A stretch of DNA of 64,000 bases from Chryseobacterium sp. S0630. Its GTDB lineage: Bacteria > Bacteroidota > Bacteroidia > Flavobacteriales > Weeksellaceae. The stretch's first letter is position 1; the number at the start of each line of letters is the position of its first letter. The notes beneath the pieces are model-generated. The model ran no database searches. It saw only the letters and a program-made list of their open reading frames with translations, and had not been told where the DNA came from. This document shows, piece after piece, positions 2,135 to 53,297 of this stretch. The stretch spans positions 62,001 to 126,000 of the forward strand of contig NZ_JAMZGF010000005.1 in assembly GCF_024158915.1 (NCBI RefSeq), written 5' to 3'. The position numbers were made by a program, and so were the translations under genes.

Positions 2135-3358
2135 ATGAAAGATAACTCATTATCTAATATACTAAACCAGTACGAAAGTAAGGAACAGATTGACGGACAA
2201 TTATATACCCTGAATCTAGGACCTACCCACCCTGCTACGCACGGGATTTTCCAGAATATCTTAACGATGGACGGAGAAAGAATCCTTCACGCAGAGCAAA
2301 CAGTAGGATATATCCACAGAGCATTTGAGAAAATTTCTGAAAGAAGAAACTATTCTCAGATCACTACCCTTACAGACCGTATGAATTACTGTTCTGCACC
2401 CATCAATAACTTAGGTTGGCACATGACAGTAGAGAAGCTGATTGGCGTGGAAGTTCCAAAACGTGTAGACTATATGCGTGTTATCTTGATGGAGCTAGCC
2501 AGAATCGGTGACCACCTGATCTGTAACGGGGTAACCGGAATGGACTCAGGAGCGATTACAGGTCTTACTTATATGTTCATCGAGAGAGAACGTATTTATG
2601 ATATGTATGAGCAGATCTGCGGAGCCAGAATGACAACCAATATGGGAAGAATCGGAGGTTTTGAAAGAGATTTCACACCTAAGTTTCATGAGTTGTTGAA
2701 AGACTTCTTAAAAACTTTCCCACCAAGATTCAAAGAATTCTGTACTCTATTAGAAAGAAACAGAATTTTCATGGACAGAACCATCGGTACAGGAGCTATT
2801 TCTGCCGAGAGAGCTTTAAGCTATGGTTTTACAGGTCCAAACTTACGTGCAGCAGGTGTAGATTATGATGTAAGAGTTGCACAGCCTTATTCCTCATACG
2901 AAGATTTCGACTTCATTATTCCTGTAGGAACTTCAGGAGATACTTACGACCGTTTCATGGTTCGTCAACAGGAAATCTGGGAATCAATCAAAATTATCAA
3001 ACAAGCATACGAAAATCTTCCGGAAGGACCATTCCATGCGGATGTTCCTGATTTCTATCTTCCTGAAAAGGCAGATGTATATCAGAAAATGGAAGCATTG
3101 ATCTACCATTTCAAAATTGTAATGGGAGAAACTGATGTACCGAAAGGAGAAGTTTACCATGCTGTAGAAGGTGGAAACGGAGAATTAGGTTTCTATCTTG
3201 TGAGTGACGGAGGAAGAAGCCCTTACAGACTTCACTTCAGAAGACCATGCTTCATCTACTATCAGGCCTACCCTGAAATGATTACAGGTTCTGTAATTTC
3301 AGATGCCATTGTAACGATGTGTAGTATGAATATTATTGCGGGAGAATTAGACGCATAA
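2135..3358 (+). CDS. nuoD: NADH-quinone oxidoreductase subunit D (49 kDa)
   Basis: 49-kDa subunit that forms the quinone-binding cavity with NuoB. Typical family features: [10 protein letters not shown] (28-37), the GYIHRAFEK segment, [13 protein letters not shown], and the C-terminal GELDA-type ending (here IIAGELDA) that lacks the arginine seen in many homologues. Length of 407 residues is standard. The spacer before it (2073-2134) is built of repeated near-identical words (AGCCAATAGCC-like), a pattern also seen before nuoF. Confidence 0.97.
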
Positions 3359-50417: not shown

Positions 50418-51401
50418 ATGAATAAAAAAAGTGTTGCCGTAGTGATGGGAGGCTATTCTGATGAATACGTCGTTTCTTTAAAAAGCGGACAATTGATTTA
50501 TGATTCTCTGGACAGAAATCTCTATGACGTATATAAAGTAGTAGTCCTTAAAGATGAATGGTATTTTTTAGGTGAAAATGATAAAAAACATGCCATCAAC
50601 AGAGGTGATTTTTCTGTGACTTTAGATAATGGTGAAACCTTAAAATTTGATGCCTGCTTCAATATTATCCACGGAACTCCGGGAGAAAATGGAATTCTTC
50701 AGGCATACTGGGATGCAATCGGCCAAAAATATACAGGTTGTGATTTTTACCAGAGTGCACTTACTTTCAATAAAAAAGACACTCTTGCTGTATTATCAAA
50801 ATACGGAATTCCTTCCGCAAAAAGTATTTATTTAAGAAAAGGCGAAGACATCAATGTAGATGAAATTGTATCAGAGCTTAACCTTCCCCTGTTTGTAAAA
50901 CCAAACCAATCCGGATCTTCTCTGGGAATTTCCAAAGTAAAAGAAAAATCTGAATTGATTGCTGCTACTGAAATTGCCTTCAAAGAAGATAATGAAATCC
51001 TGATCGAAAGTTTCCTGGATGGAATGGAAGTTTCTGTGGGAGTTATTGATTTTAAAGGAGAAACTATTGTATTAGGGATTACGGAAATTGTTCCTACCAA
51101 TGAGTTCTTCGATTATGAAGCGAAGTATGAAGGTGCTTCTGAAGAAATTACGCCTGCAAGAATTGATGAAGAAACTACAAAAAGAGTGGAAGAAATTGCC
51201 AAAAGAGCTTACAATTCATTAGGAATGAGTGGTTTTTCAAGAAGTGAATATATTCTGATGAACGGAATTCCTTACATGCTGGAAATGAATACCAACCCAG
51301 GATTCTCTCCTGCCAGTATTCTTCCTCAGCAGGCAAGACATTATGGAATTTCCATCATGGATCTTTGTGGAAATGAAGTAGAAAAAGCACTTAATAAGTA
51401 A
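50418..51401 (+). CDS. ddl: D-alanine--D-alanine ligase
   Basis: ATP-grasp enzyme making the D-Ala-D-Ala end of the cell-wall peptide. Features: SVAVVMGGYSDEYVVSLKSG at the start, IIHGTPGENGILQAYW, LFVKPNQSGSSLGISKV (ATP loop), and EMNTNPGFSP near the C-terminus. 327 residues from ATG 50418; ATG 50412 adds two. Divergent from PASTA, another cell-wall gene. Confidence 0.95.
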   Translation: MNKKSVAVVMGGYSDEYVVSLKSGQLIYDSLDRNLYDVYKVVVLKDEWYFLGENDKKHAINRGDFSVTLDNGETLKFDACFNIIHGTPGENGILQAYWDAIGQKYTGCDFYQSALTFNKKDTLAVLSKYGIPSAKSIYLRKGEDINVDEIVSELNLPLFVKPNQSGSSLGISKVKEKSELIAATEIAFKEDNEILIESFLDGMEVSVGVIDFKGETIVLGITEIVPTNEFFDYEAKYEGASEEITPARIDEETTKRVEEIAKRAYNSLGMSGFSRSEYILMNGIPYMLEMNTNPGFSPASILPQQARHYGISIMDLCGNEVEKALNK

Positions 51402-51496
51402 ATATAGAAGTTAGAAATTAGAGGTTAGAAGTTAGAAATAATAAATACATAGCTTTTAACTCATAATACACTACTCAAAATCATAACTCGTACAAC

Positions 51497-51961
51497 ATGA
51501 AAATTGCTGTTTTTCCAGGGTCTTTTGACCCGATTACACTAGGACATTACGACATTATAGAAAGAGCGGCACCGCTATTTGATAAATTAATCATCGCTAT
51601 CGGGCAGAACTCTCAGAAAAAATATATGTTCCCTCTTGAAAAAAGAATGGAATTTATTCAGAACTCTGTAGCAGAATTTCCCAATGTGGAAGTAGACTCC
51701 TTCGAAGGCTTAACGGTAGATTACTGTTTTGAAAAAAATGCACAGTATATCATCAGAGGATTAAGAAACCCGGCTGATTTTGAATTTGAAAAAGCAATTG
51801 CCCATACCAACAGAACTTTAGCTCACAAAAAACTGGAAACCGTATTCTTACTGACTTCTTCAGGAAAATCTTTCATCAGCAGCAGCATTGTAAGGGAAGT
51901 TATTAACCACGGCGGCGAATATGAACTGATGGTTCCGGACTCTGTGAGAGTGGAAAGATAA
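51497..51961 (+). CDS. coaD: phosphopantetheine adenylyltransferase
   Basis: 154 residues, coenzyme A synthesis step 4. PGSFDPITLGHYDII carries the HxGH-like nucleotide motif (TLGHY), and ISSSIVREVI is the second (SSSxVR). The gene ends 4 bp before the inverted repeat of the next element. Confidence 0.95.
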   Translation: MKIAVFPGSFDPITLGHYDIIERAAPLFDKLIIAIGQNSQKKYMFPLEKRMEFIQNSVAEFPNVEVDSFEGLTVDYCFEKNAQYIIRGLRNPADFEFEKAIAHTNRTLAHKKLETVFLLTSSGKSFISSSIVREVINHGGEYELMVPDSVRVER

Positions 51962-51964
51962 ATA

Positions 51965-52392
51965 TAAGTAATGAGCAATAAGTAATGAGTAATTTTGATA
52001 GGGTAGATTTTAACCAAATTTTCCGGGAAAGAACCAAAAACTTTTCTATTGCTATCATTAAAACTCTTTCTTCATTACCTTTTTCGGATGACATTTCAAT
52101 AATTAGAAAACAAATTATCAGATCTTCAACTTCTGTGGCAGCCAATTACAGAGCGGTATCCAGAGCAAGATCGGAGAAAGAGAAATCTGCTAAAATATGC
52201 ATCGTAGTCGAAGAAATTGATGAAACTCAACTTTGGCTTGAAATTATTGAAGAATTAGAATATGTAAGTCCGGAAAAAATTTTACATTTAAAAACAGAAT
52301 GTGAAGAACTTGTAAAAGTTATGACTACCTATAAGTTTAAATTATCTCAAATTTAAATGGCATAATTTTTATTACTCATTGCTCATTACTTA
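51965..52392 (+). repeat. inverted-repeat-flanked unit containing an S23-type gene
   Basis: TAAGTAATGAGCAAT (51965-51979) and its perfect inverted copy ATTGCTCATTACTTA (52378-52392), 15 bp each. An inner copy AATGAGTAAT (51984-51993) matches ATTACTCATT (52371-52380). The unit is 428 bp and holds one gene whose ATG lies within the left repeat. Confidence 0.7.
51985..52356 (+). CDS. four-helix-bundle protein (S23 family)
   Basis: 123 residues, all helical: FSIAIIKTLSSLPFSDDISI, IRKQIIRSSTSVAANYRAVSRA (cut), SAKICIVVEEIDETQLWLEI. This is the fold of the 23S rRNA intervening-sequence protein and of diversity-generating-retroelement Avd. Many free-standing copies exist in Bacteroidota with unknown function. 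No reverse transcriptase or 23S gene nearby. The ATG lies inside the left inverted repeat. Confidence 0.85.
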   Translation: MSNFDRVDFNQIFRERTKNFSIAIIKTLSSLPFSDDISIIRKQIIRSSTSVAANYRAVSRARSEKEKSAKICIVVEEIDETQLWLEIIEELEYVSPEKILHLKTECEELVKVMTTYKFKLSQI

Positions 52393-52405
52393 TCATTCAT
52401 AATAT

Positions 52406-53038
52406 ATGCACGAACAGTTCAATTTTGCGATAGAAGTCCTTGGGACCATTGCCTTTTCCATGTCCGGAAGTTTTGCAGCGATGCAGAAACGGCTTGATCC
52501 GTTCGGAGTGCTTATTATTGCATTTGTAACTTCTGTGGGAGGAGGAACTGTAAGAGATCTGTTACTGGATATCCCTGTATTCTGGATGCATGATATTCTT
52601 ATGTGTACCCTGATTCTGGCGACCAGTATTTTTTCCATGATATTCAAATCTCTTGAAAAGAACTTTAAGGTAACCTTATTTATTTTCGACAGCTTCGGGC
52701 TTGGACTATTTACCATTATCGGAGTTCAGAAAGGATTAAATGCTGGAATTCATCCTATGATCTGTATTGCATTAGGAACTATTACAGGCTGTTTCGGAGG
52801 GATTATCCGGGATATATTACTCAATAGAATTCCATTAATTTTCAGAAAGGAAATTTATGCCACAGCATGTATCGTAGGTGGAGCAGCATTTTTGCTGATG
52901 ACCCAATATACCACACTGTCATACACTTTCATTCAGATTTTCACCATTTTACTCATCGTTGCCATTCGAACTTTCGCAGTGAAATACCACTGGCAGATGC
53001 CAAAATTTTACGGATATGATCAAAACTCGGAAATGTAA
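52406..53038 (+). CDS. TRIC-type (UPF0126) cation channel family protein
   Basis: 210 residues with about seven helices. Two UPF0126 repeats: GTIAFSMSGSFAAMQKRLDPFG...VGGGTVRDLLLD and SFGLGLFTIIGVQKGLNAG...FGGIIRDILLN. Such proteins form trimeric cation channels. 14 bp after the S23 inverted repeat. Confidence 0.9.
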   Translation: MHEQFNFAIEVLGTIAFSMSGSFAAMQKRLDPFGVLIIAFVTSVGGGTVRDLLLDIPVFWMHDILMCTLILATSIFSMIFKSLEKNFKVTLFIFDSFGLGLFTIIGVQKGLNAGIHPMICIALGTITGCFGGIIRDILLNRIPLIFRKEIYATACIVGGAAFLLMTQYTTLSYTFIQIFTILLIVAIRTFAVKYHWQMPKFYGYDQNSEM

Positions 53039-53080
53039 TTTAAAAACCATTCTTGTTCGATAAAATTTAAATAGAATTAA

Positions 53081-53227
53081 CAGGTCGCTCCTCCGGAGCT
53101 TTATTTTATGGGGATTTCATTTTTCTACTAACAGCAGATCCCGATGGGATCAAATTTAGCTCCAATGGGAGCTGACTGTTAATAGAACGTATTTGTTTTA
53201 AAATGAGAGCTCCGGAGGAGCGACCTG
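53081..53227. repeat. nested palindromic element
   Basis: CAGGTCGCTCCTCCGGAGCT (53081-53100) is repeated in perfect reverse as 53208-53227. Inside are hairpins GATCCC-GAT-GGGATC (53137-53151) and AGCTCC-AATG-GGAGCT (53158-53173), framed by TAACAG (53129-53134) and CTGTTA (53176-53181). Non-coding; the rest of 53039-53349 shows nothing but a terminator. Confidence 0.85.
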
Positions 53228-53297
53228 CTAATTCATAGCGTAAATATTAATATTTTCAATGTATTTATACTTTTTATCGGACAGTAATGGGTCGTAC

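Follow-up and report, generated by a model that had tools for sequence, protein, structure and literature searches.

An intervening sequence (IVS) of 428 nt in the 23S rRNA of Coxiella burnetii carries an ORF for the protein S23p and is bounded by a 28-bp terminal stem (PMC4990558). Two or three GACAGAT heptamers, depending on the strain, precede the ATG, and an RNase III site lies at the start of the first heptamer repeat (PMC4990558). The authors of that 2016 paper think it probable that S23p is not produced in vivo, and they call the functionality and origin of rRNA IVSs unclear (PMC4990558). For PF05635 proteins in general, the open-access literature surveyed names no known function. Their likeness to the DGR protein Avd has already been published (PMC10053308), and in Flavobacterium psychrophilum an IVP-annotated gene shifts by log2 −2.38 in biofilm (PMC5787105), a figure which suggests that transcripts of the S23 family exist.

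Here we describe an S23 gene in the spacer between two protein genes of a Chryseobacterium genome, located in a stretch of 64,000 nt that was analysed as a whole (the window). We are confident that the locus is, in its anatomy, one instance of a recurrent insert, IVS-like in plan, between same-strand protein genes. Among the papers listed by searches of an open-access library, which largely lacks subscription journals and preprints, no title or abstract opening describes S23 genes with inverted heptamer arrays outside rRNA.

The S23 insert at the coaD locus

The S23 gene, of the 23S rRNA IVP four-helix-bundle type, occupies positions 51985-52356 of the plus strand and encodes 123 aa with matches to PF05635 and TIGR02436 that, at 58.1 and 80.4 bits, exceed the respective cut-offs of 33.8 and 24. 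As the preliminary description had it, this is a lone S23-type gene within inverted repeats, placed between coaD (51497-51961, plus strand; TIGR01510, 176.7 bits) upstream and, downstream on the same strand, a membrane protein gene matching PF03458 (52406-53038, plus strand), which we take to be the gene called UPF0126. The entire stretch from the coaD stop to the UPF0126 start measures 444 bp (51962-52405, plus strand). The perfect 15-bp terminal inverted repeats reported earlier are indeed present (51965-51979, plus strand, and 52378-52392, minus strand), and each gains one matching base outwards to give 16 bp, counted from 51964 and to 52393. They are the core of longer inverted 7-bp arrays around the S23 gene: the left arm consists of about four GTAATGA-type heptamers (51964-51993, plus strand; repeat search, and Tandem Repeats Finder at periods 7 and 14), and the right arm is a similar array in inverted orientation (52371-52401, minus strand; repeat search, and Tandem Repeats Finder at period 7). 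Shifted to a second register, the two arms align with 96% matches across 23 nt (51964-51986 with 52371-52393) and with 77% across 31 nt. Since the inverted-repeat score of the locus is 23 and a score of at least 20 occurs in just 3 of 381 control ORFs, the arms are not due to chance. Two details of the earlier account need adjustment. The ATG (51985), which had been put in the left repeat, lies outside the 15-bp copy, five bases (51980-51984) intervening, but inside the longer array at 51964-51993, and the spacers given as 4 bp and 13 bp are 3 bp on the left and, as claimed, 13 bp (52393-52405) on the right. No target-site duplication was found by eye, the empty and filled spacers being too diverged for comparison. 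Folded as RNA, positions 51950-52412 reach −104.6 kcal/mol against −78.5 ± 6.3 for shuffled sequences (z −4.1). Judged by the features of an IVS, the locus has the inverted stem and the heptamers by the start codon (51964-51993); as the rRNA location that defines the class is lacking, we do not class the insert as an rRNA IVS. Elsewhere in the window, the spacer directly upstream of coaD holds an AAATTAG-type heptamer array without an S23 gene (51400-51439, period 7, 5.6 copies), and downstream of UPF0126, at 53080-53230, inverted, GC-richer GGTCGCTCCTCCGGAGCT-type copies lie on either side of a stretch.

The AlphaFold2 model of the S23 protein, built with 29 sequences, has four helices at a pLDDT of 91.4. 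Its top PDB matches, 2RLD and 2GSC (Foldseek TM, query, 0.77-0.81), place it with the four-helix-bundle type and are also its only clear matches by sequence. The next folds were Avd (4DWL) and the DGR reverse-transcriptase ribonucleoprotein (8UB7/8UB8), at TM 0.75-0.79 and E 0.005-0.01. Because its fold matches that of Avd, and on this ground only, we infer that the S23 protein may bind RNA. No nuclease family or fold appeared among its matches to Pfam/TIGRFAM profiles or in Foldseek, and no defence link in the form of a PADLOC match. A DGR has a reverse transcriptase (RT) and template/variable repeats beside avd, whereas the neighbours here are coaD and the PF03458 gene, with no RT. An RT adjoining the cassette was rejected as a candidate, since both RVT_1 ORFs that the genome has sit on other contigs (L396, G000:C87; L397, G000:C47). 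One has a group II-like model as its best match, without reaching the cut-off of that model (203.9 of 300 bits), and the other a Drt2-like one, just short of the cut-off (377.2 of 390).

Recurrence in the genome, the genus and other bacteria

A profile search found 13 PF05635 genes in the genome (5.38 Mb in 139 contigs); for one of them, L001, the nearest named relative comes from Chryseobacterium sp. CH21 (98%). We scored the arms of each as the best local match between 180 nt upstream and the reverse complement of 200 nt downstream; 381 ORFs of this genome, taken from 457 kb, served as controls. Scores of at least 18 were obtained for 9 of the 13 S23 genes vs. 4 of the 381 controls. The other four (L001, L003, L007 and L009) scored only 13-14, a score of at least 14 being reached by 36 of 381 controls, and the best alignment of L001 lies outside its array. 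One of the four high-scoring controls, a gene at L124:15804-16415 whose inverted flanks span about 43 nt and score 29, seems from its sequence to resemble a REP-associated transposase gene; by eye, we presume it to be of the REP-associated tyrosine transposase-like type.

Short-period repeats were seen by eye in the flanks of all 13 copies, with a unit that varies from copy to copy. One common terminal repeat for all S23 copies was therefore rejected, as units differ between S23 lineages. Taken literally, the expectation that the repeat of the coaD locus would flank other S23 genes fails, the heptamer unit being lineage-specific; what does recur is the inverted-array architecture. The same terminal repeat at other copies, as an insertion sequence or MITE would have it, was not found, the arms differing between lineages. 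When arrays of period 4 to 15 were counted in 457 kb, period 7 gave 41 and its double, 14, gave 25, the rest lying between 0 and 12. With up to 3 mismatches allowed and overlapping matches in long arrays counted, a genome search with the left arm of the coaD locus gave 61 near matches, and one with the pattern read backwards 11. Strict ungapped pairing of period-7 arrays genome-wide gave a strong inverted partner for 4 of 78 (control, 1), and local alignment took its place. Two same-strand spacers with hairpins of z about 4 were also noted, at 916-1010 of the window and at L109:18033-18130, the latter with clear heptamers and no S23 gene. If the anatomy is common, it could explain part of the spacer heptamer repeats in the genus Chryseobacterium.

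All 25 genus genomes scanned, our own included, contain PF05635, with 3 to 18 matches each. Among the matches listed, 40 further genus copies were hand-picked, mainly for high scores and thus non-randomly; 16 of these have an arm score of at least 18 and 28 of at least 16. In three genomes two S23 genes share a strand at a distance of about 1.6 kb (G004:C6:178260/179877, G012:C72:102588/104206 and G022:C2:2304550/2306166), which suggests that two successive gaps of an operon each carry a cassette. Both neighbours are co-directional with the S23 gene in 13/13 cases in our genome and in 40/40 of the further copies among the matches listed, vs. 227/372 control genes. Grouped by flanking genes, these 53 copies represent 21 sites, for which the same-strand arrangement has a chance figure of 0.61^21 = 3e-5; some of the 21 may be a single site with diverged flanks, as for L004 and L335, the closest protein pair. 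The sites include groES/groEL, purC/purF and queA/rlmN, by gene names read from translations. Outside the genus the co-directional bias is weaker (55/71 of the best 80 loci, 9 having no readable neighbour on one side). The bias could mirror only the need of a promoterless gene.

These best 80 S23 loci come from a wider scan with two S23s of this genome as queries, a choice that favours canonical members. By their titles they belong to Bacteroidota, Patescibacteria, Planctomycetes, Acidobacteria, Nitrospirae, Proteobacteria, Clostridia and others. The arm score is at least 18 in 50 of them and under 18 in 30, shuffled sequences giving about 7 to 14, mostly near 9. A period of 7 at 16/20 or more was found in 52 of their 160 arms vs. 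14 of 446 control windows, and a period of 8 at that level in 21 of 160 vs. 4 of 446 windows from the same loci. With the threshold relaxed, an arm of period 7-9 is present in 58 of the best 80 elements vs. 23 of 446 single windows; having two arms each, the elements are at an advantage in this comparison. In our genome, 8 of the 13 copies pass the relaxed test. When 15 of the best 80 loci, those with odd neighbours or weak arms, were scanned with Rfam at gathering scores, none had its S23 gene inside rRNA, and the link to rRNA IVSs is therefore carried by one published element. Near one S23 gene, in a candidate division KSB1 bacterium, there are two Acido-Lenti-1 RNAs (L200:2486-2531 and 3059-3104).

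Occupied and empty sites and their history

Relatives do have empty sites between coaD and UPF0126, as the idea of an insert leads one to look for. The family survey gave 38 UPF0126 matches in 37 of 40 genomes, of which 30 loci were read. In 13 loci, from 13 genomes of 11 other genera, the gap is 0-49 bp and holds no insert; another 13 were left out of the empty count, 7 for lack of a scripted UPF0126 start and 6 for lack of an upstream coaD. Three loci, from our own genome and two other genera, have a gap of S23 size with similar heptamers, and one congener has an 86-bp palindrome in the gap. The two empty gaps of more than 40 nt (43 and 49 nt) gave a hairpin z of about 0. Within the genus, presence is likewise variable and not universal: scored by motif, with a remnant (G034) counted as absent, S23 is recognisable at the coaD locus in 27 of 60 genomes, 18 copies being intact and 9 broken (no ORF of 105 codons, for which draft-assembly errors may be responsible), and not recognisable in 33. 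Intact copies are under purifying selection, with a median dN/dS of 0.095 over the 101 of 153 pairs with dS under 1.5.

Most S23-less alleles of the genus contain a palindrome that is shorter and as a rule built from another heptamer, a state that a simple insert/empty model does not predict. Short S23-less gaps with a hairpin z above 3 number 24/33 at coaD, 7/13 at groES, 16/16 at queA and 9/22 at purC; in background gaps of a sampled genome the figures are 12/85 for same-strand, 7/16 for convergent and 3/21 for divergent gaps. Thus queA/rlmN resembles the coaD picture, groES/groEL and purC/purF less clearly. In some S23-less coaD alleles (L045, L072 and others), a conserved core lies between the arms and can be read as a short ORF starting MAKNLLKQ or similar.

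Alleles for stem analysis were picked for length and integrity (18 of the 27 with S23, 19 of the 33 without). With RNAalifold, 13 arm pairs close the S23-bearing element, 4 of them with both-sided changes, as do 3 of 43 predicted pairs outside the arm stem; for one arm pair, 9 of the 18 alleles have A-U and 8 have G-C. The S23-less stem has 15 pairs, 2 with both-sided changes, and a covariation term of only −0.23. Arms of the same allele fit each other better on average than swapped arms do, both with S23 (mean 18.4 vs. 16.9, reached by 1 of 2000 permutations) and without it (16.2 vs. 14.0, 0 of 2000). Own arms exceed the swap median in 17/27 and 21/33 alleles, respectively, and are the single best fit in 2/27 and 4/33. 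Relatedness inflates both the arm-swap and the covariation tests, and we regard arm covariation as modest; conversion of a DNA hairpin could produce the same pattern.

On a 30-genome tree from the coding flanks of the three other sites, with allele states set by eye and remnants assigned by judgement, S23 presence at coaD changes at least 11 times; for groES, queA and purC, the flanks of which are in the tree, the minimum is 10, 8 and 5 changes. An aligned coaD + UPF0126 tree of 60 genomes needs 18 presence changes, the shuffled mean being 19.9 with 23% of shuffles as low, and presence on this tree is therefore close to random. Divergence of the coaD S23 copies correlates with that of their flanks (r 0.75, 25 copies) and with that of unlinked genes (r 0.85, 15 copies). 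In a quick S23 protein tree (118 columns, long branches), coaD, groES and purC each form one clade, two copies from other genera joining the coaD lineage together with an other-site copy, L013; queA has two changes because its copy from our genome was entered twice (own_L011). Since divergence follows flanks and unlinked genes and clades are formed per site, each site appears to hold an old S23 lineage, often lost or replaced, and since S23 tracks species divergence and clusters by site, spread appears to happen seldom, or else chiefly from one homologous site to another. Much of the patchiness of S23 is accounted for by repeated loss. Homing by frequent transfer was weakened as a candidate, as coaD S23 divergence fits species divergence.

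Movement between sites, as read from the sequences, is apparently rarer but visible. Over 210 different-site pairs, S23 protein similarity correlates with arm similarity (r = 0.36, 0 of 2000 permutations). Among the 12 closest protein pairs, the top arm score of 59, vs. an all-pair median of 20, belongs to L002 (purC) with L312, which in its genome (G022) lies about 105 kb away from the purC copy of that genome. The suggestion of a miniature mobile cassette can thus be kept in part: the insert comes and goes, and S23 and arms are related together between sites, but the per-site lineages are old and speak against frequent hopping on the genus time scale.

Proposed explanation and relation to known systems

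We propose that the insert belongs with the S23-bearing 23S rRNA IVS as a selfish cassette, here lodged in a protein-gene spacer, and consider the full mechanism about evenly balanced between right and wrong. The operon transcript would carry the cassette with S23 read in sense, and the arms would pair with each other in the RNA to form a stem that closes the S23 mRNA. RNase III would cut this stem, by analogy with the cut published for the Coxiella IVS, and owing to this cut the neighbours would be little disturbed. The S23 protein, if Avd-like in function, may bind the RNA of its own cassette and aid its spread, perhaps with help from a reverse transcriptase in trans. A broader version, which we put forward only tentatively and consider doubtful, is that S23 genes are the coding part of bacteria-wide IVS-like elements of operon transcripts: their arms of 7- to 9-nt units would be cut out, an Avd-like pentamer would recognise its own arm repeat, and RNA or RNP would spread via a host RT, with rRNA IVSs as rare landings in rRNA and S23-less heptamer palindromes as non-autonomous offspring. 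If the shared anatomy holds, orphan PF05635 genes gain one testable explanation and a tie to the rRNA IVS.

A REPIN- or MITE-type DNA palindrome, which we consider unlikely, would have its inverted arrays moved by a transposase in trans (e.g. RAYT), with S23 as cargo or helper and the S23-less palindromes as the non-autonomous form. Such palindromes do occur at the same sites, with z above 3 in 24/33, 7/13, 16/16 and 9/22 short gaps vs. 12/85 in the same-strand background; by eye, a TACAAAG-type heptamer is found at both groES/groEL and queA/rlmN, and the genome has a RAYT-like gene with inverted flanks (L124), so named from its sequence by eye. The arm families, however, have no end sequence in common, whereas the REP sequences of REPINs are described as strongly kept (PMC3116915), and the sense-only orientation of S23 is unexpected for a DNA element blind to transcription. 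Operon hairpins with a role for the host seem to us less probable still: here, the arrays would be fast-turnover hairpins for processing or stabilisation and S23 a passenger or a binding regulator. By eye, nearly all congeners keep an array, palindrome or remnant at the four sites, stems are kept with some compensatory changes, and groES/groEL and purC/purF are among the sites. Yet 13 genomes from 11 other genera have coaD and UPF0126 just 0-49 bp apart, with z about 0 in the two gaps scored (43 and 49 nt), unit sequence and presence vary between close species, and 9 of 27 coaD S23 copies are broken.

We find it improbable that the insert is a homing-like DNA parasite, in which S23 would aid copying into an empty homologous site by flank recombination, without an RNA step. 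The site-specific S23 clades, the minimum of 11, 10, 8 and 5 presence changes at the four sites on the 30-genome tree and the coexistence of intact, broken and S23-less states agree with it; against it, the S23 matches include no nuclease family or fold, and S23 divergence follows species divergence and fits loss better than repeated homing. Finally, a chance meeting of an ordinary small gene with slippage-made simple repeats is hardly credible: slippage can expand one arm (as in G021) and inverted scores of at least 14 are also found in 36/381 control ORFs, but slippage yields no inverted partner some 380 bp off, and scores of at least 18 occur in 9/13 S23 genes vs. 4/381 controls and in 50 of the best 80 loci across phyla.

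Of the systems that resemble the proposed cassette, the GxxExxY (TIGR04256) genes are likewise small, with an arm score of at least 18 in 15/32 and same-strand neighbours in 29/31 (L104-L108 and L339-L365; 5 in our genome), but their protein is unrelated to S23 and their repeats are different, some being common to several sites by eye. The TAACTGA repeats of Beggiatoaceae, Cyanobacteria and five Bacteroidetes are tandem heptamers too, located for the most part between genes and close to start codons (PMC4679880); unlike the S23 arms they repeat one fixed unit directly, an inverted arrangement being reported in one case, and the main text does not use the terms '23S', 'intervening' or 'four helix' (PMC4679880). 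With REPIN/RAYT systems the S23 element shares that it is short, extragenic and inverted, with a hairpin and non-autonomous copies (PMC3116915), but it has no internal transposase, and its arms are lineage-specific 7-bp arrays. The S23 model is predicted to be close in fold to the Avd of DGRs (TM 0.78 to 4DWL and 0.75 to 8UB7), although identity is 8-10% with Foldseek E of 0.005-0.01, and S23 is flanked by coaD and the PF03458 gene with no adjoining RT.

The Coxiella IVS differs from the coaD element in that the latter lies in a protein-gene spacer, has another unit, and carries heptamers in both arms, those of Coxiella being described upstream of the ORF (PMC4990558); excision, too, is only proposed for the coaD element. 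The two have in common an S23/PF05635 ORF, a length of about 430 nt, an inverted stem and heptamers by the start codon (PMC4990558), and S23 inserts as a group share with the IVS a sense orientation in the host transcript and a sporadic presence (PMC4990558).
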